A DNA stretch of 42,119 bases from a virus. Under the pieces are notes generated by a model. That model worked only from the letters and a program-made list of their open reading frames with translations, did not search any database and had not been told where the DNA came from. The position numbers and the translations under genes were made by a program. The stretch is taken from positions 1 through 42,119 of the IMG/VR virus record IMGVR_UViG_3300042444_000089; one strand, given 5' to 3'. Below, piece after piece: positions 9,429 to 42,119 of the stretch (positions are counted from its first letter, which is position 1; each line of letters opens with the position of its first letter).

Positions 9429-10506
9429 AATCAAACTCTACGGCAGCATCGGCTACCCCGGCATCACCAGTGCGACGTTCAAGTCGCTGCTGGCTGATTG
9501 TGACCCGTCGCAGGAGCTGGTGATTCGCATCGACAGCGAAGGCGGCAGCGTGTTTGACGGCCTGGGCATCCATGACGCAATCACCGCATGGCCGGGACCA
9601 GTGCGGGCCATCGTTGAGTCCAGTGCGTTCAGCATCGCCAGCTTCATCGCAATGGCGGCAGGCAAGGTAGAGATTACCGAGAACGGCTACCTGATGCTGC
9701 ACAACCCGTACACCGTGACCGAAGGCGACAGCGAAGAGCTGCAGAAGCAAGCCGACCTGCTAGGCAAGCTGCGGGACAGCATGGTGAGCGCCTACGCAAC
9801 CAAGACAGGAAAGAGCCGCGAAGAAGTCGAGGCCGCGATGCGTGCCGAGACTTGGCTGGATGCCCGCGAGGCACAGGCCAGCGGCTACGTCGATTCAATT
9901 CTGCCGACTGCCCGCAAGAGCGTGGCCGTTGCCAGATTTACAGGAAACATGCCGGAGCGGGTCAATCAGTCGCTGAACGTCAGCGGCGACTCGTGCGGCG
10001 AAACTGCTGACCAAACGGAGACAAATCCCATGAGCAGCAATCCCAAGCCCGTCGCGACCGTGAAATTCATTCAGGCTCGCTTCGGCAAGGCGTCGTCGGA
10101 CTTCATCGTCAAGGCAGTCGCTGCCGAGATGACCGAAGACCAAGTCGCCGAAATGTATTACAGCGAGATGATGACCGAGAACGAACAGCTCAAGGCCAAG
10201 CTCGCAGCGATGGAAGAGGAGATGGTTGCACTCAAGGCTAAGGCCCAAGAGACGACCGTCGCCGAAGTCGAAGAAGACGACAAGGAACAGATGGTCACGA
10301 TGCCAGCCGCCAAGGCTCGTCTTGGCGTGGCTCCGGTGGCGTCTGTCACCGCCTCAAAGCCGGTCGCCAGTGCCAAGGCCCAGTGGCAAGGCGTTGTCGC
10401 AACCTACACGGCGCAAGGCATGAAGAAGGCAGACGCTGCTCGCAAGGCGGCACGCGAACACGCTGGCCTGCGTGATGCGGTCATCGCCGAAGCAAACAAC
10501 AAGTAA
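9421..10506 (+). CDS. ClpP-like prohead protease fused to scaffold
   Basis: A 361-residue protein. Residues 1-165 are a ClpP/S49-like serine protease: IDSEGGSVFDG near 38, the likely nucleophile S71 in AFSIASFIAMAAG, the likely catalytic H94 in LMLHNP, and a TWLDAREAQASGYVD block near 144. Residues from about 204 form a separate charged helical region (TENEQLKAKLAAMEEEM), typical of a scaffold. As in lambda gpC/Nu3, the protease would mature the prohead and degrade the scaffold. An internal start with its own ribosome site lies at 10030. The catalytic assignments are by alignment from memory. Confidence 0.9.
   Translation: MNEIKLYGSIGYPGITSATFKSLLADCDPSQELVIRIDSEGGSVFDGLGIHDAITAWPGPVRAIVESSAFSIASFIAMAAGKVEITENGYLMLHNPYTVTEGDSEELQKQADLLGKLRDSMVSAYATKTGKSREEVEAAMRAETWLDAREAQASGYVDSILPTARKSVAVARFTGNMPERVNQSLNVSGDSCGETADQTETNPMSSNPKPVATVKFIQARFGKASSDFIVKAVAAEMTEDQVAEMYYSEMMTENEQLKAKLAAMEEEMVALKAKAQETTVAEVEEDDKEQMVTMPAAKARLGVAPVASVTASKPVASAKAQWQGVVATYTAQGMKKADAARKAAREHAGLRDAVIAEANNK
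10030..10506 (+). CDS. Nested scaffold protein (internal start)
   Basis: An in-frame ATG at 10030 is preceded by GGAG at 10017-10020 with a 9-base spacer, the best-placed internal ribosome site in the gene. It would yield a 158-residue protein containing the Lys/Glu-rich coiled-coil region and the Ala/Lys-rich tail but lacking the protease. This is the arrangement of lambda C/Nu3, where the scaffold is made from an internal start. Seen in the sequence: start, ribosome site, domain boundary. Inferred: use of the start in vivo. Confidence 0.6.
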   Translation: MSSNPKPVATVKFIQARFGKASSDFIVKAVAAEMTEDQVAEMYYSEMMTENEQLKAKLAAMEEEMVALKAKAQETTVAEVEEDDKEQMVTMPAAKARLGVAPVASVTASKPVASAKAQWQGVVATYTAQGMKKADAARKAAREHAGLRDAVIAEANNK

Positions 10507-22053: not shown

Positions 22054-23020
22054 AAAGCTGTGCAAGAAGTTTCCAGACACACCGAGCCGCACACTGGCCA
22101 AGCGTGTTGCCGCAGAGTGCAAGGTAAACATGGAAATAGCACGGACTGCGGTTCGGACTGTGCGTGGGTGCAACGGCAAATTTCGCCGAGAGCAAACGCT
22201 GGACAAGTCGCTGTTCAAGCCGCCAGGCAAAGCAGGGGCTAAGCCGAAACTGCCGCCGAGTTTGGCCAAGAAGTGGGAGCCGTTTGAACTGGGCGGAGGA
22301 ATAACCGTCGGCGTTATCAGCGACCTGCATATTCCGTATCACGACGAACAAGCCATCCAAGCGGCGGTCGCCTATCTTCGCAGACGCAGGCCGGACGTGC
22401 TGCTAATCAACGGCGACTATGGCGACTGGTACAGCGTCAGCAGGTACATGAAAGACCCGAAGAAGCGGAGGCTGAAGCGGGAGATCAGAATGCAGCGAGA
22501 TGGGCTGAAGTGGCTCCGGTCACAATTTCCCAAGGCTCGCATCGTCGCCAAGGAAGGTAATCACGAACTTCGATGGAGTCACTTCCTTTTTAACTCGGCC
22601 CCTGAGGTGAGTGAGTTTCCGCAGGTCAGTCTGCCCCGCATTCTGGGAATGAAGACGCTGGGGATTGAGTACGTTGACAACCAGCGGCCAATCATGGCAG
22701 GCAAGCTGCCAGTCTTCCACGGCCACGAGCTTGGGAAGGGCATCAGCAGCCCGGTCAACGCATCGCGCGGCGTGTTTACTCGCATGATTTCCACGGCACT
22801 GGTCGGGCACCACCACAGAACCAGCAGCCACACGGAACCGAACTGGAAGCATGAGGAGATTGTATGCTGGTCGACTGGGTGCCTGTGCAATCTCAACGCC
22901 GAGTATGCCGTCATTAACAAATGGAATGCCGGGTTTGCTGTGGTCGAGGTGGACGGCAGCGGCCAATTCCAAGTGGATAACCTGCGTCTCAATACCGACT
23001 ACGCTGTCCGCAGCGGCTGA
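22019..23020 (+). CDS. Metallophosphoesterase (calcineurin-like)
   Basis: A 333-residue protein. The first ~95 residues are basic and helical and may bind nucleic acid. The catalytic domain has the complete metal-ligand series: SDLHIPYH (about 100-107), INGDYGDWY (129-137), KEGNHELRW (178-186), HGHELG (238-243) and GHHHRTSSH (262-270). It would hydrolyse phosphoesters of an unknown substrate. Such enzymes occur in phages as putative nucleases or phosphatases. The overlap with the glycosyltransferase suggests coupled expression. Confidence 0.85.
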   Translation: MKPKTPHRVLAEKLCKKFPDTPSRTLAKRVAAECKVNMEIARTAVRTVRGCNGKFRREQTLDKSLFKPPGKAGAKPKLPPSLAKKWEPFELGGGITVGVISDLHIPYHDEQAIQAAVAYLRRRRPDVLLINGDYGDWYSVSRYMKDPKKRRLKREIRMQRDGLKWLRSQFPKARIVAKEGNHELRWSHFLFNSAPEVSEFPQVSLPRILGMKTLGIEYVDNQRPIMAGKLPVFHGHELGKGISSPVNASRGVFTRMISTALVGHHHRTSSHTEPNWKHEEIVCWSTGCLCNLNAEYAVINKWNAGFAVVEVDGSGQFQVDNLRLNTDYAVRSG

Positions 23021-23194
23021 GCCGAGCATACGCCCAGATAATCGTATCGTCGAAGTCGTCGCTGCCATCGTCGAAATCGAACATTGCCCCGCCTCCATGC
23101 CTGACCTGCTCGCCAGTGTCATTTTACGGGGCCGGGCTGGGCCTGTTCGGTTAATTTTCCTGCACGGGAAAACGGCGGGAATTTGTGGGGTTTT

Positions 23195-23269
23195 GTTACC
23201 GTGCGGGGTTACGACACTTGGCAAAATATTTTTAGATTGTCGGCTTGCGTTAGTGGTAACTGCCGTTAC
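23195..23269 (+). promoter_or_regulatory. GTAAC/GTTAC operator-like repeats
   Basis: Four copies of GTTAC or its complement: 23195-23199, 23208-23212, and a converging pair GTAAC tgcc GTTAC at 23256-23269. The last pair is a perfect inverted repeat and covers the start of the -10 box of the next gene, so binding there would block transcription. The preceding region (23021-23194) holds no gene I accept. Operator function is inference; five-base motifs occur by chance, but the last pair is well placed. Confidence 0.4.
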
Positions 23270-23272
23270 AAT
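23267..23272 (+). promoter_or_regulatory. -10 box, likely leaderless promoter of HTH gene
   Basis: TACAAT, one mismatch from TATAAT, with a weak TTGCGT 16 bases upstream. The ATG begins eight bases after it, and no ribosome site lies between, so the transcript would start at or next to the start codon. Confidence 0.45.
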
Positions 23273-23280
23273 CGCCGGGC

Positions 23281-23472
23281 ATGGACAAGTTTGCAAAACA
23301 AATCGAGAAACGCATTCGGCAAAAGGGCTGGAGTTTACGCCGTGCCGCTGCCGAAATAGGTTGTACGCATTCGATGCTGAGTTACGTTGTGCGAGGTAAA
23401 CGCGGCGTCAGTCTCAAACTGGCAGTTAGAGCGGCCAAGGTGCTTGGTATTTCAATCAGCGAATGCACTTAG
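23281..23472 (+). CDS. Cro/C1-type HTH regulator
   Basis: A 63-residue protein that consists of one helix-turn-helix domain: a basic first helix, SLRRAAAEIGCTHSMLSYVVRGKRGVS as the HTH (residues ~18-44), then a third helix ending LGISISEC. It probably regulates its own promoter, since the inverted repeat at 23256-23269 overlaps the -10 box. No dimerisation or cleavage domain is present, so it is Cro-like rather than a CI-like repressor. It opens the early gene region. Confidence 0.8.
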   Translation: MDKFAKQIEKRIRQKGWSLRRAAAEIGCTHSMLSYVVRGKRGVSLKLAVRAAKVLGISISECT

Positions 23473-23513
23473 TTTTTTTGCGATACTGGAAACTATAGCG
23501 AACAGGTGAACGG

Positions 23514-23609
23514 ATGGAATCGTACACGTTGCCGAGGATTCGACTGCTGCAATACGTGGCGGCGAATGTAAACTATCGAGTAGGGTTATTGCTTGAGGTG
23601 CTGGCATGA
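23514..23609 (+). CDS. Very small protein (31 residues)
   Basis: ATG 23514 follows AGGTG with suitable spacing and the frame stays open for 31 codons (MESYTLPRIRLLQYV...). Its TGA overlaps the next ATG (ATGA), as with most gene pairs here, which is the main reason to accept it. The peptide looks like a single helix with hydrophobic faces. No function can be given. Confidence 0.45.
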   Translation: MESYTLPRIRLLQYVAANVNYRVGLLLEVLA

Positions 23610-23812
23610 TTCTGGACTTGGAATTGACATGCGAGGAAATGGAACGGCTACAGCAGATCCGCAGCGGCTGGAGTGATGATGAGATGGCAAGGCGTGCGGA
23701 AGGTTACCGGGTGAGCGAGATGGTCCAGATGTTTGCTGGACATCAGCGGCAGCTGGAACTGAAACGCCAGCGAGATTTGCGGCGAGTCCGCAGACTGCGA
23801 GGGATTGTTTGA
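23606..23812 (+). CDS. Small helical early protein
   Basis: A 68-residue charged helical protein. The N-terminus is acidic (ELTCEEMERLQQI), the C-terminus strongly basic (LELKRQRDLRRVRRLRG), which could bind nucleic acid or a protein partner. A motif-like WSDDEMARRAEGY lies in the middle. It overlaps the next gene by four bases. Family unrecognised. Confidence 0.6.
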   Translation: MILDLELTCEEMERLQQIRSGWSDDEMARRAEGYRVSEMVQMFAGHQRQLELKRQRDLRRVRRLRGIV

Positions 23813-24249
23813 CCAAGCAACCATTCGCCGACGACTTCGCGCAAGCAGACACCCTGCACCGTGAAGCACTGGCACGAATCGTTTTCGACATGGCCGCGTA
23901 TCTTCGCAACAAACGCACCAGCTTGAAGCGTGAGTCGGCCCGGCTGCGACTCGCTGGCCGCATCGCCGAGGCAAAGGAAAAGGCCGAAGCCGCTGACGTG
24001 TTCGAGCAATGCTTTGACTACTTCAAGGGCCTGCGGAAAGCCAACAACGAAGCATCAGCCCGGCAATCGGTATCGCACTATCGCCAAGAGGAAACGGGCG
24101 AGGGTCAGATATTTACCGACCCGACACCGGAAGAGATTGCCGAACAGTGCCGCAAGTTTCAAGAGGGCTGGTCGGATGCAGTTAGGGAGCTGCGGTCTTC
24201 GGTTAAGACCGTGGGAGCGGAGACGAGGATCGTCAAGGTGATGGATTAG
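23809..24249 (+). CDS. Early protein of unknown function
   Basis: A 146-residue protein starting at TTG 23809 that overlaps the preceding stop. Mostly helical; the central part is Ala/Lys/Glu/Arg-rich (LRLAGRIAEAKEKAEAADVFEQCF), likely coiled coil, and the C-terminal part contains TDPTPEEIAEQCRKFQEGWSD. No catalytic motif is visible. It is followed by an intrinsic terminator, so it closes the first early operon. Confidence 0.6.
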   Translation: MTKQPFADDFAQADTLHREALARIVFDMAAYLRNKRTSLKRESARLRLAGRIAEAKEKAEAADVFEQCFDYFKGLRKANNEASARQSVSHYRQEETGEGQIFTDPTPEEIAEQCRKFQEGWSDAVRELRSSVKTVGAETRIVKVMD

Positions 24250-24263
24250 CAGGATTCAAGGTT

Positions 24264-24284
24264 GGCCACGGATGGCCTTTTTTT
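24264..24284 (+). terminator. Intrinsic terminator
   Basis: GGCCA, loop CGGA, TGGCC, followed directly by seven T. A compact, GC-rich stem with a full T-tract, 15 bases after the stop at 24249. One of the two clearest terminators in the window. Confidence 0.8.
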
Positions 24285-24299
24285 CTGGGAGCAAATGCG

Positions 24300-24623
24300 A
24301 TGCAGACAATTGCAAGAACATGGGAGGCCGTCCGCAGCAATGGCCTGATTCTGGTATCGGTGCCGTGCTGCAACTGGACACGAACCTGCCATGAGTGGAG
24401 CTGCGGCACCATGCGGGCCTACTTACGAAACGCCAGGCAGATACCCGCTGACATCCGGCTGGAGATTTATCGCTGGCTGGAACAACAGGAAGCCAGTGTT
24501 GAGGACGAGATCGCCGAGGCTGATAAGCGGCACGGCGACCGAGCTGAGTTTGTTTTCTGGTGCGTGTTTGCACTGGCGGCGTTGGTGGTGGTCGGTTCGA
24601 TGGTCGTGGCGATGGGAGGGTGA
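24300..24623 (+). CDS. Small membrane-anchored protein
   Basis: A 107-residue protein with an N-terminal soluble part containing several cysteines (VPCCNWTRTCHEWSCG) and a C-terminal transmembrane segment (FVFWCVFALAALVVVGSMVV, about residues 84-103), so it is tail-anchored. Located right after a terminator and ahead of a run of coupled small genes. The family is not recognised. Confidence 0.55.
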   Translation: MQTIARTWEAVRSNGLILVSVPCCNWTRTCHEWSCGTMRAYLRNARQIPADIRLEIYRWLEQQEASVEDEIAEADKRHGDRAEFVFWCVFALAALVVVGSMVVAMGG

Positions 24624-24624
24624 G

Positions 24625-24990
24625 ATGGTTTGCGAAACAAAGACGCTTGGCGTGGGCAGATACACGACACGGGACGGGCGGGAAGCGGTGGTTGATGCGG
24701 TGGTCGATGGCATGCTGGTCGGGCGAGTGATGATTGGAAGCACGCCATTCGGGCAGGTTTGGGAACCGGATGGCAAAGCGAATAGCATTGGCCGGTCTGC
24801 GTTCGACATCAGCGGCGAGTTGCGGATTCTGGTTAAGCGTTTGTATTGGCTGAACGAGTACGACAACGGCCCCGGCCTGCTGCGGAAGACGTGGGAAGAA
24901 TCGCTGATTGAAGCGAGCCGCGAAGAGAAGCAACCTCTCTGCCGGGTAGAGCTGAAATTCGTGGCTTTCGTAGGAGACGGACTGCGATGA
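24625..24990 (+). CDS. Early protein of unknown function
   Basis: A 121-residue protein; I take ATG 24625, behind GGGAGGG, as the start, since the longer frame would fully overlap the previous gene. It contains a beta-like N-terminal part (GVGRYTTRDGREAVVDAVVDGMLVGRV) and a helical C-terminal part. Overlaps the next gene by four bases. No motif for a known activity is visible. Confidence 0.6.
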   Translation: MVCETKTLGVGRYTTRDGREAVVDAVVDGMLVGRVMIGSTPFGQVWEPDGKANSIGRSAFDISGELRILVKRLYWLNEYDNGPGLLRKTWEESLIEASREEKQPLCRVELKFVAFVGDGLR

Positions 24991-25316
24991 CACCAGTGCA
25001 ATTCTTGGAAATGCTGCGATTCGGAATCCCCGGCTATCAGATTCAGGCGTTCAGCCCTGAGTGTTTATCGGCCAAGGTGAAGTGGTGCGGCGAGATGATG
25101 GAAGTAACCGCCATCGATGTCGATGCCTACCCGGTGCTGATGGTGACAACGCCTGACCTGCGACTGACTGAGCGAACGACCGCCGTGCTGGGCCTGCTGG
25201 ACAGCGTGCTGCCTGAAGTGATGCAGCGGCCAAGTCCGTGGCCTGACTGCCAGTCGCTGGTCGAACGTATCAGGGAGTTGGCTGAGGAGGATGAAGACGA
25301 TGTCGACCCAGCCTGA
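24987..25316 (+). CDS. Early protein of unknown function
   Basis: A 109-residue protein. The central part is probably beta (CLSAKVKWCGEMMEVTAIDV) and the C-terminus is helical and highly acidic (LAEEDEDDVDPA), possibly a DNA-mimic-like tail, though too short to argue this strongly. It overlaps the following DUF3310-like gene, whose ribosome site lies inside its coding region. Confidence 0.6.
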   Translation: MTPVQFLEMLRFGIPGYQIQAFSPECLSAKVKWCGEMMEVTAIDVDAYPVLMVTTPDLRLTERTTAVLGLLDSVLPEVMQRPSPWPDCQSLVERIRELAEEDEDDVDPA

Positions 25317-25533
25317 CAGTATCAACCCGCAGCACTATCGCCAGCATCCCAGCGGCGTGGAGTGCATCGAGGTAACGCAGCATTTTAATTACTGCCTTGG
25401 CAACGTCATCAAGTACGTATGGCGAGCCGGCTTGAAACAAGACGCAGTGGAAGACCTGCGGAAAGCGGCGTGGTACATCGACAGGGAAATTAGACGGCGG
25501 GAGGCGAGCGATGAATCAGCTAAGTCTGTTTGA
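25300..25533 (+). CDS. DUF3310-like early protein
   Basis: A 77-residue protein. The body matches the phage DUF3310 (SaV-like) pattern: HPSGVECIEVTQHFNYCLGN, then VIKYVWRAGLKQ and DLRKAAWYIDREI. I choose ATG 25300 because GAGGAGG (25284-25290) is nine bases upstream; the ATG at 25291 abuts it with no spacing. Members are common in phage genomes near replication genes but lack a firmly established role. The 3' end overlaps the next gene. Confidence 0.75.
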   Translation: MSTQPDSINPQHYRQHPSGVECIEVTQHFNYCLGNVIKYVWRAGLKQDAVEDLRKAAWYIDREIRRREASDESAKSV

Positions 25534-25834
25534 CGTTGAACCAGCACTGGCACGGGCAGGTGATCCGATGACGAGCCGGACAGCGGCCGAGGAAATCAAG
25601 CCGAAGATTGGCCAGTTGCAAGCGGCATTTTTGGCGGCACTGACAGCCATCGGCAAACCGGCAACGGCAAACGAAGTCGGTGCCAAGGCAGTGGCGATGG
25701 GACTGGCAGTCAATGCGGAGTCGGTGAGGAAACGAGCGGCGGAAGTTGAGCGGGCGCGGATGATCAAAGTTGTCGGAATTCAGCGGTGTGGTGTGACGGG
25801 GAAATTGGCGGAAGCGTGGAGGGTGAGCGAGTGA
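25511..25834 (+). CDS. Winged-helix-like protein with clamp-binding motif
   Basis: A 107-residue protein. Residues 3-7 are QLSLF, the canonical bacterial beta-clamp-binding pentapeptide. The rest resembles a winged helix: DPMTSRTAAEEIKPKIGQLQ, then GKPATANEVGAKAV and ESVRKRAAEVERARMI, and a terminal wing. The second part is a pattern often found in phage proteins that carry HTH-like domains. It may attach to the host sliding clamp and so link regulation or repair to replication. The clamp interaction is an inference from the motif. Confidence 0.65.
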   Translation: MNQLSLFDVEPALARAGDPMTSRTAAEEIKPKIGQLQAAFLAALTAIGKPATANEVGAKAVAMGLAVNAESVRKRAAEVERARMIKVVGIQRCGVTGKLAEAWRVSE

Positions 25835-26022
25835 CATCCAAACAACTACACGACAAGCTTGAAACATTTAAGCCGCTGCGAATCCGTAACGCGGTCTACA
25901 TTCCGGCATGGATGACGACCGTTGCCGAAATCTGCGAGGCGGCTGGATTGGACGCCGGAGCGGTCGAGCGATGGAACGCGGACTACTACGTGATCGAATG
26001 TCTCACGGAGCCGGTTCGATGA
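25831..26022 (+). CDS. Small early protein
   Basis: A 63-residue protein that I start at GTG 25831, overlapping the previous stop (GTGA) and preceded by GGAGGG. The sequence is mixed (TFKPLRIRNAVYIPAWMTTVAEICEAAG), with an HTH-like central region of uncertain meaning. The next gene begins four bases before its end (ATGA). Function unknown. Confidence 0.55.
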   Translation: MTSKQLHDKLETFKPLRIRNAVYIPAWMTTVAEICEAAGLDAGAVERWNADYYVIECLTEPVR

Positions 26023-26291
26023 TGTGGCTACTGGCATCGGCATCACTGCTGGCAACGGTGCTGAATATTAAACACCGAAAAGAGTGCTTTGCAATCTGGA
26101 CGGTAACCAATGCGGCTTGGTGCGTGGTCGACATTATGCACGGCATCTACGCACAGGCGGCATTGCAGGCGGTTTACTGTGGGCTGGCTATATGGGGACT
26201 GGTGGAATGGTCACGGATTACGAAGCGTTTATCAAGCGGAAGCAGCGGCGAGTCGAGGCATACGGATTCGACATCGGGACCGACAAGCTAA
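26019..26291 (+). CDS. PnuC-like small membrane protein
   Basis: A 90-residue membrane protein from ATG 26019, overlapping the previous stop. It has three hydrophobic stretches: residues 1-14, ~25-40 (FAIWTVTNAAWCVVDI) and ~45-65 (QAALQAVYCGLAIWGLVEW). The spacing of W, N and D residues resembles the core of PnuC, the NMN/nicotinamide riboside transporter, of which phages carry short forms. It may help NAD metabolism of the infected cell. Its tail overlaps the helicase start by 85 bases, an unusually long overlap. Confidence 0.65.
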   Translation: MMWLLASASLLATVLNIKHRKECFAIWTVTNAAWCVVDIMHGIYAQAALQAVYCGLAIWGLVEWSRITKRLSSGSSGESRHTDSTSGPTS

Positions 26292-27610
26292 ATCAGAACC
26301 TGTTTGATTGGCAGAAGCGGGCGGTTCAGTGGGCAATCAAGCGAGGACGCGCGGCACTGTTCGAGGAATGCGGGCTGGGTAAGACGCTACAGCAGCTTGA
26401 ATGGGCACGGCTGGTTCATCAGCACTGCGGTCTGCCGGTCGTGGTCCATTGCCCAGTCGGAGTCCGCAGCCAGACCAAACGCGAGGCGGAGAAGTTCGGC
26501 ATTGATTCGCCGGTGACCGTGGCCGACAGCCAGGACGAAGTCATCAACGGCATCAACCTGATTAACTACGAGAAGCTACACAAGTTCGACCCGGCTACGT
26601 TCTGCGGCGTCGTGCTTGATGAATCGTCAATTCTCAAGGGCATGAACAGCGTCACGCGGAAACTGCTGAAAGAGAGCTACGGCCAGACGCGGTTCCGGCT
26701 GGCCTGCACGGCGACACCCGCACCGAATGACCATATGGAACTTGGCAACCACGCCGAGTTCCTTGGTATCTGTGAGCCGGTGGACATGCTGAATCGGTAC
26801 TTCGTCCACGACAGCGGCGATACCAGCAAGTGGCGTTTGCGTGGCCATGCCGAGCGAGACTTCTGGTCGTGGGTCAGCCAGTGGGCGGTTTGCATCAGCA
26901 AGCCATCGGACATTGGCGGCGAGGATGCTGGATACCAACTTCCGCAAATGATTATTGAGCGGCACCAAGTCACGCCGGAAATCGACAACGCACCAAGCGG
27001 AATGCTATTTAACACAGCTGGCATCAGTGCCACGACGATTCACGAAGAAAAGCGGCTGACGAATGAATCCAGGTGCAAGCGGGCTGCGGAACTGGCCAAG
27101 GCAACCAGCGGCCCGGTTCTGATTTGGTGTGATACCAATTACGAGGCGGACGAACTACGGAAACATCTGCCGGATGCGGTCGAGGTTCGCGGTGACGACA
27201 AGGATAAAGAGGGCAAGCTACTGGGATTCGCAGATGGACAATTCCGCGTCCTGATTAGCAAGCCATCCATCGCTGGCTTCGGAATGAACTACCAGCACTG
27301 CGACACGCAGATATTCGCCGGTCTGAGCTATTCATTCGAGGCGTACTACCAAGCAGTCCGCCGTTCGTGGCGGTTCGGCCAGAAAAAGCCGGTCAAGATT
27401 CATATCGTGATCGCAGACAGCGACAGTGCGATTGAGTCGGCAGTGGCCCGCAAGGAAAGCGACCACGCCGTTATGCAATCAGGGATGGCTCAGGCGATGG
27501 CCAGCAGCAACGGCATCGAATGGAACGGTGACATGCTGAAGCAGCGTTATCGGCCAAGCGTATCGATTCAGGTTCCGAGTTTTATTGATGGAGCAGTGAC
27601 ATGCAAGTGA
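26207..27610 (+). CDS. SNF2-like DNA helicase/ATPase
   Basis: A 467-residue superfamily 2 ATPase; I use ATG 26207. Motifs in order: a Q-like NLFDWQKRAVQWAI (31-44), Walker A CGLGKT (55-60), DESS in VVLDESSILKG (134-144), CTATPAPND (167-175), and a C-terminal arginine-finger motif QAVRRSWRFGQKKPV. It would use ATP to unwind or remodel DNA during replication or recombination. The family is common in phages next to methyltransferases and recombinases, as here. It overlaps the following gene by ten bases. Confidence 0.88.
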   Translation: MVTDYEAFIKRKQRRVEAYGFDIGTDKLNQNLFDWQKRAVQWAIKRGRAALFEECGLGKTLQQLEWARLVHQHCGLPVVVHCPVGVRSQTKREAEKFGIDSPVTVADSQDEVINGINLINYEKLHKFDPATFCGVVLDESSILKGMNSVTRKLLKESYGQTRFRLACTATPAPNDHMELGNHAEFLGICEPVDMLNRYFVHDSGDTSKWRLRGHAERDFWSWVSQWAVCISKPSDIGGEDAGYQLPQMIIERHQVTPEIDNAPSGMLFNTAGISATTIHEEKRLTNESRCKRAAELAKATSGPVLIWCDTNYEADELRKHLPDAVEVRGDDKDKEGKLLGFADGQFRVLISKPSIAGFGMNYQHCDTQIFAGLSYSFEAYYQAVRRSWRFGQKKPVKIHIVIADSDSAIESAVARKESDHAVMQSGMAQAMASSNGIEWNGDMLKQRYRPSVSIQVPSFIDGAVTCK

Positions 27611-35511: not shown

Positions 35512-36183
35512 TTGAGTCTCCCCCGACTGTCTGCATCAGTTCTGTGGGTCTTTTTCTTGCTGGCCCAGCACGCTGCTGGGCAAGTCGGCGTTGGCACTGA
35601 CCTTTGGGAGTTCACCGACTGCGAGCCGGAAGTGGCCAAGGCCCTCGTGGTCGTGCGTGGTAACAGTAACGGCGGCACCGGCACCGGCTGCATCGTCCAG
35701 GCGGCAGATAACCGGCCTGCGATTCTGACCGCTGCACACGTTACCGACGGCAATGAATCTTTTACCGTCTCTTTCCACGACGGCAGCACCAATAAGGCCA
35801 CGCTGCGAGGCACTGACCGCGAGGCGGATGTGGCCGTCTTGAACTGCAACACGCCGGACGGCTGCAGCGTCTTGGAAGTGGGCGACGCCAAGGAGGGCGA
35901 GTCTGTGCGGGTCTGCGGGTTTGGCGGCGGGCAGGGCCTGCGATGTTTCAAAAGCACCGTAGCGGCCATCGGCGATAAGTCGCTGGTTCTGTTTGCGTTT
36001 GCGATACCGGGTGACAGCGGTGGTCCAGTGGTCAACGCTGCTGGCAAGGTTGTTGGCGTGGTGAGTGGCGGCAGCGTCTGGGCCAAACGCAAGGTGAAAA
36101 CCGTGGCAGGCACCGTCCACAGCATCACAGCCCCGGTTCGGTCGGGACTTGCCAACAAGGCCCGACAACTTTTAGGTCGGTAG
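35512..36183 (+). CDS. Exported trypsin-like serine protease
   Basis: A 223-residue protein starting at TTG 35512, behind AAAGG/AGGTGA. An N-terminal signal peptide (SVLWVFFLLAQHAAG, cleavage near residue 23) is followed by a chymotrypsin-fold catalytic domain: H76 in ILTAAHVT, D106 in READVAVL, S169 in PGDSGGPV. It should be secreted to the periplasm or cell surface. Exported trypsin-like proteases are unusual in phages. It begins the exit region, and could degrade surface proteins of the host. The triad is complete, so activity is likely. Confidence 0.88.
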   Translation: MSLPRLSASVLWVFFLLAQHAAGQVGVGTDLWEFTDCEPEVAKALVVVRGNSNGGTGTGCIVQAADNRPAILTAAHVTDGNESFTVSFHDGSTNKATLRGTDREADVAVLNCNTPDGCSVLEVGDAKEGESVRVCGFGGGQGLRCFKSTVAAIGDKSLVLFAFAIPGDSGGPVVNAAGKVVGVVSGGSVWAKRKVKTVAGTVHSITAPVRSGLANKARQLLGR

Positions 36184-36209
36184 TTTCTCCGGGAGCGGGA
36201 GGCTGAAGG

Positions 36210-36419
36210 ATGGCCACAAAAGTCATGGAAGGCAGCCCGCTTTTGACTTACGAAGCGGACGAAAACGAGGGGCGAAAGGCATTTTACGCAGGTGTATCAG
36301 CGGTCGATTGTCCGCACCCATCTGACGGGCACAACATCCGGCGAACTGCGTGGATGCGCGGCTACTACGCTGCGAAATATTGGGACCGGCACAAATTCAG
36401 GAGCGTTTGGGATGAATGA
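36210..36419 (+). CDS. RMF-like small protein
   Basis: A 69-residue protein behind GGGAGG. The pattern GRKAFYAGVSAVDCPH, then RRTAWMRGYYAAKYWD, matches ribosome-modulation-factor-like domains found in phages: an aromatic residue, CP, and a WxxGY segment. RMF dimerises ribosomes in resting enterobacteria; whether phage versions act on ribosomes is not known to me. It overlaps the following gene by eight bases. Confidence 0.65.
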   Translation: MATKVMEGSPLLTYEADENEGRKAFYAGVSAVDCPHPSDGHNIRRTAWMRGYYAAKYWDRHKFRSVWDE

Positions 36420-36663
36420 CTTGGTGACCCGTTTCGTGCGTGTGGCTGCTTCGTCCGTCTGGGCGTGGCTGGCGGCGTTCCTTTTGCGATACCTCGGCGT
36501 TGGGTTCAGCCCTGACCAGTCGCTGGCAGTCGAGGCAGCGTTCATTATCCTGCTAACCGGGCTGGCCAATGCACTGATCGGGCTGGCGGCAAAACGCTGG
36601 CCACTGCTGGAGACGTTGCTACTGGTCAAGACATCGCCCAAGTATCTGGAGCCGAAACAGTGA
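36412..36663 (+). CDS. Holin candidate (two membrane segments)
   Basis: An 83-residue protein from ATG 36412 with two hydrophobic segments: about residues 13-32 (SSVWAWLAAFLLRYLGVGF) and 40-60 (VEAAFIILLTGLANALIGLA), then a basic and polar tail. This is the topology of class II holins, which open the inner membrane. It begins a chain of coupled genes (36412, 36660, 36749, 36979, 37761) that holds the exit functions. Holin activity is inferred from topology and context. Confidence 0.6.
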   Translation: MNDLVTRFVRVAASSVWAWLAAFLLRYLGVGFSPDQSLAVEAAFIILLTGLANALIGLAAKRWPLLETLLLVKTSPKYLEPKQ

Positions 36664-36752
36664 CATCGGAGTGCATGGGGTTGGTTCTGCTGGCGGTGAT
36701 GCTGACCAGCTGCTTGTCGGTTCTGGCGGAAATCCACGGGGGCGAAAAATGA
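36660..36752 (+). CDS. Tiny lipobox-like membrane protein
   Basis: A 30-residue frame from GTG 36660 that overlaps the previous stop (GTGA) and ends in the next start (ATGA). It has a hydrophobic stretch GLVLLAVMLTSCLSVL with LTSC matching the lipoprotein lipobox. Its N-terminus lacks the usual positive charge, so lipidation is uncertain. By position it could be an outer-membrane spanin-like subunit (Rz1-like) but is very short for that. Confidence 0.4.
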   Translation: MTSECMGLVLLAVMLTSCLSVLAEIHGGEK

Positions 36753-36979
36753 CACTTGCACAGGTAATCGACGCAAACATCGGGCGGCACAACCTGCGGG
36801 AACGGGTGGCCCTGCGTTGGCTGAAGCTGCGATGTCGCCGTGATGCCGACTTCGCCGCTGCCTTCGAAGAGGAACTGGCGGACAAGCTCGGCGTGAGTGC
36901 TATCGACTGGTCGCAAATCGACTGGGAACAGGTGGTCAAGATCGTGCTGATGATTCTGGCTGCGTTTGGGGTGCTGTAA
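36749..36979 (+). CDS. Small protein with C-terminal membrane segment
   Basis: A 76-residue protein from ATG 36749, overlapped by both neighbours, with GGGGG as ribosome site. The N-terminal 55 residues are charged and helical (RERVALRWLKLRCRRD), and the C-terminus is a hydrophobic segment (VVKIVLMILAAFGVL). Possibly an antiholin or spanin partner in the same exit chain. No family recognised. Confidence 0.55.
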   Translation: MTLAQVIDANIGRHNLRERVALRWLKLRCRRDADFAAAFEEELADKLGVSAIDWSQIDWEQVVKIVLMILAAFGVL

Positions 36980-37764
36980 TGCGTAACAAATCCGCTGCCT
37001 TTTTCGTTACGGCGTTTCTGCTGCTGTGCCTGGCGTCGTCTGCGTTTGGGCAGGTCGAGACGACCGTAACACGCAAGAAGGCCTTGCTGGGCGTGACTAA
37101 CCCGCAGGTGCAGGGCAACCGCATTCTGGTGGGCGACGATTCAAACGTCAGCGTTTCGGACGTCGTGCTGCTGGAAGTCAAAAGCGATTACAAGTTCCAG
37201 CGGGTGAAGGCTCGCCAGAACGGCAATCGTGTTGAGCCGGAAAAGCTGGCCGATAACGTTTACCTGTTTGCGGGTGCGGGTGCCTACGTGGTCGAGGTGA
37301 CGGTCTTCGACCCAGACAAGGGCATCGACGACGCTGAAATTAAATTCGACATCGGCGGCAAGCCTAAACCGCCGACACCTGACCCGACACCGGACCCTGA
37401 GCCGGAGCCGGAACCGAAGCCAGACATCGTGCCGAACGATTACGGCGTCGGCCTTTTGACTTACCAACTGGCCCCGGCTGATGCGCCGAATGCCGTCAAG
37501 TTCGCCAAGGCGTATCGGGACGGTGCAGGCAAGCTGTTCGGCGTCAACGGACTAGCAACTATCGACAAGATTCTGGCGGACATTGGCGCGACGGTCGCCG
37601 GCCGCCAGTGTAGCGACTTAACCAAGTGCGAGGCGTGGGGAACATGGAAGGTCAAGCTGGATGAGGCGATGAAGGCCCAGCAGGCCAAGCGTGGCAGTTT
37701 CAGCCGCGAGGACTGGTTCAAGGCACTGACGGAAGTAGCGACAGCCTTGGAGGCCCGCAAGTGA
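36979..37764 (+). CDS. Exported two-domain protein with Pro/Glu linker
   Basis: A 261-residue protein whose ATG overlaps the previous TAA. Signal peptide: residues 1-24 (KSAAFFVTAFLLLCLASSAFG). Then an Ig-like beta domain (about 30-125), a Pro/Asp/Glu linker (TPDPTPDPEPEPEPKPD, about 135-155), and a C-terminal helical domain (LLTYQLAP...RKAYRDG-type helices) with a Cys pair. No catalytic motif. It may bind the cell surface or act as an adaptor; it lies between the membrane proteins and the papain-like peptidase, with which it shares a four-base overlap. Confidence 0.7.
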   Translation: MRNKSAAFFVTAFLLLCLASSAFGQVETTVTRKKALLGVTNPQVQGNRILVGDDSNVSVSDVVLLEVKSDYKFQRVKARQNGNRVEPEKLADNVYLFAGAGAYVVEVTVFDPDKGIDDAEIKFDIGGKPKPPTPDPTPDPEPEPEPKPDIVPNDYGVGLLTYQLAPADAPNAVKFAKAYRDGAGKLFGVNGLATIDKILADIGATVAGRQCSDLTKCEAWGTWKVKLDEAMKAQQAKRGSFSREDWFKALTEVATALEARK

Positions 37765-38564
37765 GCAAAAGCAAACCGACCAAAGACTTGACACCTGGCC
37801 GGCTGGGTTACGCCTTCGACTGGGAACGCTTGGACGAACTGGAAGAACGTGGCAGCGATGCCGAACTGGTGCTGAAGCAGTACCGTGACACGTTCCCGAA
37901 GTTCGACACGACAGCGGACCCGCTGGGCGTGCTTAAGGTGTTTGACCAAGGCCAGCAGGGCAGTTGCCAAGGCAATGCGCTGGCGCAGGTCTTCAGCATC
38001 TGCTACTTCCTTGCCACTGGGCGGCACGAAACGTTCAGCCGGTCGGCCGGCTATTACTTGGCCCAGAAGCGCGACGGCATCAGCGGCGACAAAGGCAGCA
38101 CGCTCAGCGGCGGGCAATGGGTGGCAACCCAGCACGGCATGTGCTTGGAGTCTGATTGGCCTTATCCGTCACGATACAACCCGGCGATGCCGCCCAGTGC
38201 CGAGGGCAAGTTTAACTTCAAACTCAAGGCCACCAAGCCGCTAAAAGACATCGACAGCGTCTTGGCGTGGTTGGACTCTTCGTTGCCAATTCAGATCGGC
38301 CTGACATGGAATGGCACATGCGACCAAGAAGTCGTTAGCAATTATTCATCCCGCTCCGGTGGCGGACATTCGACGGTGTTCTGGCAACGGCGAGCCAGTG
38401 GCAACATCGTCAACATCAATTCGTGGGGAACGCGGTGGAATGGCGACGGCGTTCACGAATGGACGGTGGACAGCGTCAAGGAGGCCCTGCGTGGTCGCTG
38501 GACGGTGTTTATCGGTTACGCACCGGACGGGATGAGTTTTCCAGCCCCGAAAGCCATTTCCTAA
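37761..38564 (+). CDS. Papain-like cysteine peptidase
   Basis: A 267-residue protein with the full C1 set: oxyanion Q63 and nucleophile C69 in DQGQQGSCQGNALA, H203 in GGGHSTVFW, and N220 in NINSWGTRWNGDG. The spacing Q-to-C of six residues equals that in papain. No signal peptide or long propeptide is visible, so it would reach its target through a holin, as classical endolysins do. The likely job is exit from the cell by cutting protein or peptide crosslinks in the envelope; that is inference from position. Confidence 0.88.
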   Translation: MSKSKPTKDLTPGRLGYAFDWERLDELEERGSDAELVLKQYRDTFPKFDTTADPLGVLKVFDQGQQGSCQGNALAQVFSICYFLATGRHETFSRSAGYYLAQKRDGISGDKGSTLSGGQWVATQHGMCLESDWPYPSRYNPAMPPSAEGKFNFKLKATKPLKDIDSVLAWLDSSLPIQIGLTWNGTCDQEVVSNYSSRSGGGHSTVFWQRRASGNIVNINSWGTRWNGDGVHEWTVDSVKEALRGRWTVFIGYAPDGMSFPAPKAIS

Positions 38565-38576
38565 GAGGTCATCGCC

Positions 38577-38771
38577 GTGACTGATTTAAGTTTGATCGGA
38601 GCATTAACTGCAGCAGTCGGCACGCTGGCCGGCGTTGTTGCTTGGATGGGCCGTTGGTTCGTCAAGCAGTTTGACGAACTGAAGGCGGAAGTCATCGAAT
38701 GCCGCCGCGACCGTGAGAACCTTTGGGAACGCATTACACAAATCAACGACCGCCTGGACGAGAAGGAGTAA
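38577..38771 (+). CDS. Membrane protein with coiled-coil tail
   Basis: A 64-residue protein, GTG start 38577, behind AGAGGT. N-terminal membrane segment (SLIGALTAAVGTLAGVVAWMG, 5-25) followed by a charged helix (FDELKAEVIECRRDRENLWERITQIND). This is the layout of XhlA-like or holin-type accessory proteins and of inner-membrane spanin subunits. It is next to the papain-like peptidase, supporting an exit function. Specific type unresolved. Confidence 0.6.
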   Translation: MTDLSLIGALTAAVGTLAGVVAWMGRWFVKQFDELKAEVIECRRDRENLWERITQINDRLDEKE

Positions 38772-38774
38772 CTT

Positions 38775-39125
38775 GTGGCCTTTTACGACAAGACCGTGAC
38801 GATTGCCAACGGACAGACGACCAGCCCAGCCGTTGACACCGGCATGCTGACAACGCACAGCAAGACGCAACTGGTGGGGATTACGTTCCCGGCGTCGATG
38901 ACAAGCACCAGCATGACGTTTGAACGGGCCACGACGGAGGCTGGAACCTACACGCCACTTCGGGAAGTTGGCGGGGCGGCACGTTATCCGGTGACAGTGA
39001 CATCAGGCGAGACGGTTGCGCTTGATCCGCGGGTGTTCATCTGTGCGCCGTACATCAAGCTGGTCGGCGGCAGTTCGGAGACAGGTGCCAAGGTGATCAC
39101 GCTGCACTTCCACGAGGTGGTTTAG
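38775..39125 (+). CDS. Small beta-rich protein
   Basis: A 116-residue protein, GTG start 38775. Beta-rich and Thr-rich (TSTSMTFERATTEAGTYTPL, then YIKLVGGSSETGAKVITLHFHEVV), with no signal peptide or catalytic residues. It resembles small structural or decoration proteins of phages. It lies between the lysis-like genes and the metalloprotease and is one base away from it. Function not assignable. Confidence 0.6.
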   Translation: MAFYDKTVTIANGQTTSPAVDTGMLTTHSKTQLVGITFPASMTSTSMTFERATTEAGTYTPLREVGGAARYPVTVTSGETVALDPRVFICAPYIKLVGGSSETGAKVITLHFHEVV

Positions 39126-39638
39126 GTGCCTGCTTTTTGCGGTTGCGACATCGAAACCAGCGACGAACCGCAGTTGATGGCAGCGGCAAAAGCCAAGCCG
39201 CGTCAATTCAAGTTTCAGCTGGTCTACGGGCACTATCCAGGCTTTGCGTTCAAGGGCATGAACAATGCTCAGACGGTCGGCATCATTCGCAAGGCAATGG
39301 CGGACTTGTCGAAGGTATCTGGGGCAAAGTTCGTGGAGTCGAGCAGCAAGCCTCACTTGCGGTTCTACTTCATGAAGCAGGTCACCTATAACGCTATCGG
39401 CGTCTACATGGGAAACGGCAAAGTCTACTTATCGCAGACCAGGCCAATCACCGCACCCGTGGCAGGCATCTGCATCCAGCATGAAGTCGGGCACTTCCTT
39501 GGCATCAAGGCCAGCCCAGCCGCTGACAAGTGGGGGCACTGTCCAGATAAAGGATGCATCATGAACATCAACGGAACTGGGCCTGCGTGGTGCAGCCGCT
39601 GCCGTGGTCAGTTGGTCGCCAAATACGGAGCGAAGTAG
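39126..39638 (+). CDS. Archaemetzincin-like zinc metalloprotease
   Basis: A 170-residue protein, GTG start 39126. Zinc site HEVGHFLG (H119, E120, H123, G126), followed by HCPDKGC (H138, C139, C144), the Met-turn M146 in CIMN, and CSRC (156-159). This is close to the archaemetzincin pattern, where the third His directly precedes a C-x4-C, but the third His is displaced about nine residues. No signal peptide or propeptide is visible. It likely acts on virion or envelope proteins. Directly precedes the fibre gene. Confidence 0.75.
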   Translation: MPAFCGCDIETSDEPQLMAAAKAKPRQFKFQLVYGHYPGFAFKGMNNAQTVGIIRKAMADLSKVSGAKFVESSSKPHLRFYFMKQVTYNAIGVYMGNGKVYLSQTRPITAPVAGICIQHEVGHFLGIKASPAADKWGHCPDKGCIMNINGTGPAWCSRCRGQLVAKYGAK

Positions 39639-41981
39639 ATGGGACTGTTGCTGTTGATGGGTGGCGTATCTGACCCGAACCCGCAATCACTGTTTGTCAA
39701 CAACGAACTGGGCCTCGCCATCGACATTGGGGACCGCAACGGTGCGAGCGAAGCCAAGCGGACTTGGCGGCGGAATCTCTGGACGTATTCAGACGAATTC
39801 TCTAACGCAGTCTGGACCAAAACTCGATGCTCAATTAACCCAAACGTCGGCAATAGTCCAGTCGGCACAGGAACCGCAGACGAGTTAATCGAGAACACTG
39901 ACAACAACACGCATATTCTTTCGCGGGTTGCCAGTTGCGACGTTGCTACCTACACGCTTTCGGTCTATGCAAAGTCGGATGGGCGAAACTGGTTTTCGCT
40001 GATGAACGGAACGCTTGTTGGAATTGTTGGTCACTTTGACTTAAACACCGGAACCGTTGGAACCGTTGGCGTTAGTTGCACAGCGGATATGGAAGATGCT
40101 GGTGATGGGTGGTGGCGTTGCTGGATTACGTTCACCGCATCAAGCGGCAGCAACGAAATGAGAATTAGGCTCGGAAATGCTGACAACTCTCCGACTTATC
40201 TTGGTGACGGTGCGAGCGGGATTTTGATTGACGGTTTCCAACTCGAACAATCCGCCACCCCCTCCACCTACCAGCCCATCACCGACTTCAATACCGAGTT
40301 CAAAGCAGCCTACCCAACGCACAGCCTCTACGTCGATAGCAACGGCGTGGCCCCTGCGGTGTATCCCGGCGACCAAGTTGGCCTTGTGATTGATTCGAGC
40401 CGGGGCGGGCTGGAGAATCTCGGAGCGGAGTTGGTGACAAACGGCGGGTTTGATAGTGATACGTGGTGGACGAAATCAACCAACGTGACTATCTCAGGAG
40501 GGCTTGCCAACTATAACACCGTGGCACTGAATAACGGTGTTTTCCGGTCTGGTGTTGTTACGGCTGGAAAGTTCTACGTTGTTACCTTTACGGTAGCTAG
40601 TTTTTCGTCCGGTGGCGTTCGGGTTTACACAGGCGGAAACCGAACGTCAACCTACGCAGCAACAGGAACGTATCGGGTTTTTTGTCTCGCCGGAAGTTCT
40701 GACACCCAACTGATTTTTGAGGCAACGTCAGCGGGAACGGTCCTCACTCTCGACGACATCTCCGTCAAGGAAATCCCCGGCGTTCACCCCTACCAGACGA
40801 CCAGCGGAAGTCGCCCGGCCTTGTGCCGTACTCCGGATGGTGGCAGGCGGAATCTGCTGACGTACAGCGAGCAGTTTGACGTAACGAGTGGCGGGTGGAC
40901 AAAAGGTTTTATTGGAATCACCGCAAACGGAGATATCGCCCCAGACGGAACATTAACTGCCGACAAGTTTACTGAGACCGCAGTCACAAACCAGTTTTTT
41001 GTTAATAGCGGGAGCTTCGGTGCTGCCGTTGGTGCAGGAGAATCACGAACAGTCTCTTGTTATGTAAAACCGGCGGAGCGAACGTGGGTTCGTCTATCAA
41101 TTGGCGGAACAGCTTTTCCTAGTACAAATGTATGGTTTAACCTTGGCACTGGTGCGGTTGGCACTCAAGCTGGCGGCACTGGAACAATTCAGAATGTTGG
41201 AGGTGGCTGGTATCGTTGTTCAGTAACCGCAACGAGTAGCGGTGCCGGAACCGTTTTAATGTATGCGTTTTTATCAAGTGCCGATAATACGTTTTCTTAC
41301 ACAGGCGTACTGGGTAACGGTGCTTGGTTTTGGGGTGCCCAACTCGAAACCGGCTCCTCCGCAACCACCTACCAGCGAGTCACCACCACCCACGACGTAA
41401 CCGAGGCATCAAAGCGAGATTGCTGGGGCCTGTTGGCAGACGGTAGTGACGACAGCCTGATAACAACGAGCATAGATTTTTCAAGCACCGACAAGATGAC
41501 CGTGATGGCGGGGGTGCGGAAGAATAGCGACTCAGCGGATGCAATAGTTTGTGAATTAACAGCAAGTTATTCTACAAACGCTGGTTCGTTCTATTTGTGT
41601 GCTCCAGAAGCGTCAGCCCCTCTTTCCTATTCGTCTGCTTCTCGTGGTACAGCGTCGAGTAATTCGTCTTTTCGTGCAGGGTTTGCCGCAGCAACCGGAG
41701 CAGCACCCGATTTGGCGATTTTATCAACGACCCATGACCTTTCTGGCGACCTAACAACGCTTCGCCGTAATGGTGTTGCCGCCTCAAACGCAACCGGCGA
41801 CAAGGGTTCTGGTAACTTCGCCAATTCAGCCATTTATACTTTTCGCCGTGGAGGTTCCACGTTGTATTTCCCCGGCATCCTCTACACCCTAATTATCCGA
41901 GGAGCCGCAACACCCACCGGGACGATTGCCGACTTCGAGAAAAACCTACTTCGCATCCGAGCAGGACTGGGGCCGTTCTAA
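39639..41981 (+). CDS. Tail fibre/appendage protein with repeated beta-sandwiches
   Basis: A 780-residue protein. After a short N-terminus (DPNPQSLFVNNELGLAIDIGDRNG) come three carbohydrate-binding-like beta-sandwich modules: about 45-215, 255-390 and 405-590, two of which share YSE.F...W and GWWRC/GWYRC motifs and end in E.(S/G)S(A/S)(T)..YQ. The C-terminal module (about 605-780) is LamG-like and paralogous to that at 3-773. It would bind host glycans. The 32 bases from 41485 match those at 292-323 exactly. It overlaps the next gene by one base (TAATG). Confidence 0.8.
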   Translation: MGLLLLMGGVSDPNPQSLFVNNELGLAIDIGDRNGASEAKRTWRRNLWTYSDEFSNAVWTKTRCSINPNVGNSPVGTGTADELIENTDNNTHILSRVASCDVATYTLSVYAKSDGRNWFSLMNGTLVGIVGHFDLNTGTVGTVGVSCTADMEDAGDGWWRCWITFTASSGSNEMRIRLGNADNSPTYLGDGASGILIDGFQLEQSATPSTYQPITDFNTEFKAAYPTHSLYVDSNGVAPAVYPGDQVGLVIDSSRGGLENLGAELVTNGGFDSDTWWTKSTNVTISGGLANYNTVALNNGVFRSGVVTAGKFYVVTFTVASFSSGGVRVYTGGNRTSTYAATGTYRVFCLAGSSDTQLIFEATSAGTVLTLDDISVKEIPGVHPYQTTSGSRPALCRTPDGGRRNLLTYSEQFDVTSGGWTKGFIGITANGDIAPDGTLTADKFTETAVTNQFFVNSGSFGAAVGAGESRTVSCYVKPAERTWVRLSIGGTAFPSTNVWFNLGTGAVGTQAGGTGTIQNVGGGWYRCSVTATSSGAGTVLMYAFLSSADNTFSYTGVLGNGAWFWGAQLETGSSATTYQRVTTTHDVTEASKRDCWGLLADGSDDSLITTSIDFSSTDKMTVMAGVRKNSDSADAIVCELTASYSTNAGSFYLCAPEASAPLSYSSASRGTASSNSSFRAGFAAATGAAPDLAILSTTHDLSGDLTTLRRNGVAASNATGDKGSGNFANSAIYTFRRGGSTLYFPGILYTLIIRGAATPTGTIADFEKNLLRIRAGLGPF

Positions 41982-42119
41982 TGAGCCAAACACTTTGGAC
42001 TTATTCAATCGTGATGATTGCACCAGCCGCCACCAAGGACGGAGCCAACGCGATTGCGGAAGCCTTGGGACATGGGCCGAATAACTTCTCTGCGACGTTA
42101 TCCTCCGATGGGAAGTCAA
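41981..42119 (+). CDS. Small fibre-associated protein, copy 2 (3' partial)
   Basis: The first 46 codons of a second copy of the 122-residue protein at 773-1141, cut by the right edge. 39 of 46 residues match; changes are at positions such as E5L and I7T. It follows the fibre gene with the same TAATG overlap. It confirms that fibre and partner form one duplicated cassette. Confidence 0.85.
   Translation, partial: MSQTLWTYSIVMIAPAATKDGANAIAEALGHGPNNFSATLSSDGKS

Follow-up and report, generated by a model that had tools for sequence, protein, structure and literature searches.

The window analyzed here, a 42,119-base record that constitutes the whole IMG/VR virus contig IMGVR_UViG_3300042444_000089, belongs to a tailed phage and encodes three different proteases near its right end. 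The core of this protease region is a pair of genes, one for an exported protein (36979-37764) and one for a papain-like (C1) cysteine peptidase without a signal peptide (37761-38564), which stand among small membrane genes in a candidate lysis cassette (36412-38771). An exported trypsin-like serine protease (35512-36183) is encoded upstream of this cassette and an archaemetzincin-like zinc protease (39126-39638) downstream. All window features described below lie on the plus strand, as do all called genes of the window. The three proteases and their catalytic residues had been proposed in an earlier sequence-only reading, and here they stand: the trypsin-like and papain-like proteins exceed the cut-offs of PF13365 and PF00112, respectively, and the residues are invariant in relatives.

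The papain-like protein scores 22.8 bits against PF00112 (Peptidase_C1; cut-off 20.7) and aligns to xylellain (3OIS) with E=3.6e-6. Its catalytic residues C69, H203 and N220, together with the oxyanion residue Q63, are invariant among 10 aligned sequences, and a distant homolog in the related contig L143 falls slightly below the PF00112 cut-off (20.5 bits vs 20.7). The fold matches of its AlphaFold model are also C1 enzymes (xylellain, cathepsins and papain), which we treat as supporting evidence only, the model being poor (pLDDT 57.5). No CHAP or NlpC/P60 profile reaches its cut-off for this protein. Judged by its sequence, the enzyme is a true member of the C1 papain family, neither CHAP nor NlpC/P60, and is predicted to be proteolytic. 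It looks more like a protein-cutting C1 member than a wall-cutting member of the papain fold, and we therefore tentatively favor an envelope protein as its substrate, with peptidoglycan stem peptides, in line with the crosslink cleavage raised as an alternative in the sequence-only reading, as a further possibility.

A second, diverged papain-like lineage is found in contigs L007 and L119. Profile comparison between the two lineages is weak (E=0.013), with the catalytic Cys, the His and the NSWG-type Asn aligned; we link them because of these aligned motifs and because the partner found in L007 and L119 belongs to the same family (profile match E=6.8e-13). Inteins interrupt the enzyme in L063 (385 residues; L063:8558-10669) and L007 (351 residues; L007:1580-3553), in both cases with the catalytic Cys as the +1 residue, and L119 has an L007-type enzyme without an intein. 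Inteins are usually found in active sites of needed proteins, and their position here agrees with a peptidase whose active site is important to the phage. We note that a thioredoxin-like gene immediately follows the second-type papain-like gene (L007:3547-3906, L119:3585-3929). Small exported proteins likewise follow the papain-like gene in other contigs (L019:8471-8839, L022:2865-3170, L072:11356-12207, L143:8602-9105); these carry short Cys-containing motifs (such as QCENGVC, ECQNGRC and QCVNC), and several are strongly basic.

The exported partner combines a signal peptide, an Ig-like domain (~27-125), a Pro-rich linker and a helical domain (~158-260) in an AlphaFold model with pLDDT 81.8. 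A search with this model returned no confident PDB match, the nearest being CopC-like and FN3-like domains. Pairing with the peptidase was counted wherever the stretch was readable, that is, in the window virus and 26 related environmental viruses, and the partner lies upstream of the papain-like gene in 27/27 of these contigs. The two genes adjoin in every case but L071, in which a small exported gene stands between them, and usually they overlap by 4 bases at the partner's stop and the papain-like start. The surroundings of the pair vary from tail-tube genes (L071), TerL (L072) and portal (L143) to recombination genes (L021, L023) and fibers (window, L019). Found in such widely different gene surroundings, the pair evidently moves as a unit. 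In L022, the pair adjoins a gene for a PAS-like protein that, read by eye, may have a membrane helix (L022:3247-3855).

Chagasin-type inhibitors are Ig-fold proteins. The Ig-like fold predicted for the partner, along with the strict pairing, would suit an inhibitor of the papain-like enzyme that sets the timing of lysis in a toxin/antidote-like manner. We consider this role very unlikely: no chagasin structure occurs among the 50 best fold matches of the partner, which is predicted to reside in another compartment than the enzyme and contains a large, conserved helical region as well.

The sequence-only reading had pointed to holin- and spanin-sized membrane proteins in this region, and such proteins are indeed present at 36412-36663 and 38577-38771, joined by a micro-gene (36660-36752) that both that reading and ordinary gene calling missed. 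The first of these is a holin-like protein of 83 aa with two hydrophobic segments, basic ends and an acidic loop; its actual start is 36412, and its second hydrophobic segment alone passes the hydropathy threshold. It is conserved in relatives and matches phrog_10742 with E=1.8e-5. The micro-gene encodes a one-helix peptide of 30 residues and overlaps its neighbors by 4 bases. Its pattern, ...LLxxxLxxxLSVLAE(I/L)HG, is kept in 9 distinct variants, among which changes are lowest at codon position 2. It is followed by a 76-aa protein (36749-36979) with a C-terminal hydrophobic/amphipathic tail (IDWEQVVKIVLMILAAFGVL); profile matches link this protein to relatives, and its tail pattern is also seen next to the pair in L021, L022, L023, L065, L068 and L072.

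On the other side of the pair, 38577-38771 encodes a 64-aa protein, about the size of a holin or spanin, with an N-terminal helix by hydropathy and a coiled coil. Its PHROG matches are weak and include an Rz-like spanin (E=0.21), with no better PHROG spanin match; similar proteins are found in L019, L071, L119 and L143. Proteins of the tailed, two-helix and coiled-coil types all recur near the pair in distant relatives. In L143, the gene preceding the pair has PHROG matches to four holin families only (best E=1.5e-4), and scores 20 bits against Phage_holin_1, just below the cut-off of 22. L143 is the only contig with a recognizable holin next to the papain-like enzyme. Downstream proteins in L007, L119 and L071, read by eye, begin with a signal, continue as a coiled coil and end in a helix, which is the layout of a one-piece spanin.

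A search for standard endolysin families had been set beforehand as a test of the sequence-only reading, which had seen no lysozyme, amidase, transglycosylase or NlpC/P60 signature. This observation holds: PHROGs and Pfam scans of all called genes of the window found no peptidoglycan hydrolase, and the search extended to 16-19 related contigs returned none either. Nine peptidoglycan-hydrolase families including CHAP were sought, each of which gave matches in control genomes. Amidase_2, phage lysozyme, SLT, M15_4, NlpC/P60 and M23 had no match above cut-off in 16 related contigs (681 kb), and Amidase_3 and M15_3 had none in 19. CHAP gave only sub-threshold fragments, in G005/G006, which were rejected because their protein is encoded between TerL and portal and is without the catalytic Cys. 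TerL relatives, examined as a module-replacement test, proved to be all close kin, with no swapped module to compare. The lack of a recognized lysin in the contigs tested is supportive of a lysis role for the cassette, short of proof.

Release by the papain-like protease is supported because the enzyme is coupled to an exported partner, lies among small membrane genes and follows a holin in L143, and because no standard lysin was found. We put at about 0.5 the probability that 36412-38771 forms a lysis cassette, with a C1 cysteine peptidase standing in for the usual peptidoglycan-cutting endolysin. The earlier suggestion of release by proteolysis thus survives for the papain-like enzyme but not for three proteases acting as one system, an arrangement ruled out by their pattern of presence and absence across contigs. 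In the mechanism we propose, the holin-like protein and the one-helix peptide, perhaps with the hydrophobic-tailed protein, would open the inner membrane, and the cytoplasmic papain-like enzyme would then enter the periplasm. There the exported partner may dock, position or control the enzyme, which would cleave peptide bonds of the envelope in structural proteins or in peptidoglycan stem peptides. The trypsin-like protease could assist from outside the membrane in some relatives, and the archaemetzincin-like enzyme, part of the fiber module, would act at entry if at all.

Several points weigh against a lysis cassette of this kind. An exported partner preceding a cytoplasmic enzyme is unusual for endolysins, and phages commonly carry small genes for helical membrane proteins. 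In the window, the sole match of the holin-like protein is to a PHROG whose function is unknown, and the spanin-like layouts were read by eye, one such protein having only a weak PHROG 'holin' match. Some genes may be missing from the contigs, and the window itself has a gap in the fiber region. In addition, an undescribed lysin could hide among structural genes of unknown function. Many environmental phages are without a recognizable lysin, and the null result of the family search lacks a base rate from unrelated environmental phages.

The same genes could instead have a role outside lysis, with the partner and the peptidase acting in host takeover, counter-defense or superinfection blocking and an unrecognized enzyme elsewhere causing lysis. 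In that case the peptidase would cleave host factors while the partner would work in the envelope. Being without a signal peptide, the peptidase would act in the cytoplasm unless released; its fold groups it with C1 enzymes that cut proteins and not with the wall-cutting CHAP and NlpC/P60 enzymes, and the cassette has accessory neighbors such as an Rmf/CrpP-like gene. We nonetheless regard this alternative as rather unlikely, since the peptidase is never separated from its exported partner and is usually clustered with membrane genes, a recognized holin adjoins the pair in L143, and no other lysis enzyme was found.

Upstream of the cassette, the gene for the trypsin-like protease is accessory. 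Its product comprises 223 aa, uses a TTG start and has a signal peptide by eye. Its match to PF13365 reaches 71.3 bits against a cut-off of 27.6 (E=1.8e-19), and its triad H76/D106/S169 is invariant in 10 aligned relatives. An HtrA/DegP identity was considered and rejected, all HtrA-type NCBIfam models being far under their cut-offs and no PDZ match being present. The gene occurs in ~15 contigs, namely the close clade, L063, L007 and L119, and not in the other distant contigs. Between it and the cassette lies the gene for the small Rmf/CrpP-like protein (36210-36419), which is over the cut-off of NF041886 (E=4.7e-10) and syntenic in close relatives.

The archaemetzincin-like protein has no signal peptide and carries a zinc motif, HEVGH...HC-x4-C-x-M...C-x2-C, that is invariant in 8 relatives. 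The archaemetzincin (M54) consensus is HExxHxxGxxHC-x4-C-x-M-x17-C-x2-C. The window protein has the same elements, HExxH...HC-x4-C-x-M...C-x2-C, but 11 rather than 2 residues separate its Gly from the third His, and 9 rather than 17 its Met from the last Cys pair. It aligns weakly and partially with archaemetzincin 2X7M (E=0.92) and remains under the curated cut-offs of both PF07998 (M54; 12.1 vs 24.4) and NF033823 (17.7 vs 145). The label given in the sequence-only reading is therefore kept in the form archaemetzincin-like: the zinc motif supports it, while two spacings differ and the scores fall short.

The gene is accessory and fiber-associated. It is preceded by the gene for a beta-rich protein (38775-39125) and followed by that for a fiber/spike protein (39639-41981; NF048003, E=4.5e-71; phrog_5939 tail protein, E=9.8e-50). 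Genes of the 38775-39125 type directly precede the archaemetzincin-like gene, or the fiber gene where the archaemetzincin-like gene is missing, as it is from L016/L056, L058, L063, L014/L054 and L055. Located between these two genes and missing from at least five relatives, the archaemetzincin-like gene travels with the fiber module, and its product fits a fiber or virion role better than lysis.

This linkage bears on another explanation, in which the papain-like peptidase, with the trypsin-like and archaemetzincin-like enzymes, would be a virion or fiber component for entry, or would process virion proteins. The tight link of the archaemetzincin-like gene to the fiber gene agrees with it, and so does the location of the cassette, which adjoins a fiber gene in the window and has tail genes close by in L071. 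For the papain-like enzyme we judge it unlikely, because the pair lies far from fiber genes in other relatives and because a ClpP-type protease for head maturation (9421-10506) is already encoded in the genome. This ClpP-type protease also makes it unlikely that any of the three proteases is needed to mature the head; virion maturation by one of them had been raised in the sequence-only reading.

Beyond the protease region, PHROGs and Pfam scans of the window identified a lambda-type large terminase, portal, the ClpP-type head protease, major head protein and tail genes, as well as helicase, methylase, RecT, RusA and a replication initiator. Among the small genes at 23020-26300, one matches the NMN transporter (PnuC) family PF04973 (E=4.1e-9); this is probably 25908-26291, the scan having left the gene unnamed. 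The record is not closed, and a short unsequenced gap remains in the fiber region. It opens with the 3' part of a second fiber gene, and its last bases are the start of a copy of gene 773-1141, so that tandem fiber units flank the short missing stretch. In the relative G001, one continuous fiber gene fills the interval corresponding to this gap. Positions 1-773 and 39639-42119 hold two diverged copies of a unit of fiber plus next gene, which represent either fiber modules in tandem or a variable region left unresolved.

Tailed phages are expected to encode a peptidoglycan-cutting enzyme. If our proposal is correct, a cassette with only a C1 peptidase would represent either a new enzyme family for wall peptides or lysis via envelope proteins, and would hint at unusual host envelopes. 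A broader version, which we offer tentatively and with chances well short of even, is that a widespread group of tailed phages ends infection by proteolysis, a holin-delivered papain-family enzyme guided by its Ig partner dismantling a protein-dependent envelope with no peptidoglycan hydrolase. The exported partner with the papain-like gene would provide a genetic marker for such phages in metagenomes, and the cassette may explain some genomes 'without endolysin'.

Scans for a close copy of the pair found none in host genomes, where only distant proteobacterial C1 peptidases appeared, and plasmids yielded only rhizobial C1 peptidases. The Planctomycetota-like host suggested in the sequence-only reading is accordingly a guess. 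Among cultured phages, none was found to carry close relatives of the three proteases or of the partner. A literature search returned no description of an archaemetzincin in phages and none of a phage whose sole lysis enzyme is a C1 peptidase. The Xanthomonas jumbo phage XacN1 has a C1 family peptidase among its potential lytic enzymes, which also include M23 peptidases and cell wall hydrolases, so that the C1 enzyme is not the sole candidate there (PMC5852040).

With the C1 peptidases, of which xylellain (3OIS) is the nearest solved structure, the window enzyme shares the Gln-Cys-His-Asn tetrad and the NSWG motif; it differs in being phage-encoded, without a signal peptide and coupled to an exported Ig-like partner. 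With CHAP and NlpC/P60 endolysins it has in common the broad papain-like fold class and Cys-His catalysis, but it does not match their profiles and its top structural matches are C1 enzymes. Similarly to holin-endolysin-spanin cassettes, the genes described here are compact and overlapping, and comprise small membrane proteins, one soluble hydrolase predicted to be cytoplasmic and, in L143, an upstream holin match. They differ from those cassettes in their extra exported partner and in an enzyme that is a C1 protease rather than a glycosidase, amidase or wall endopeptidase.

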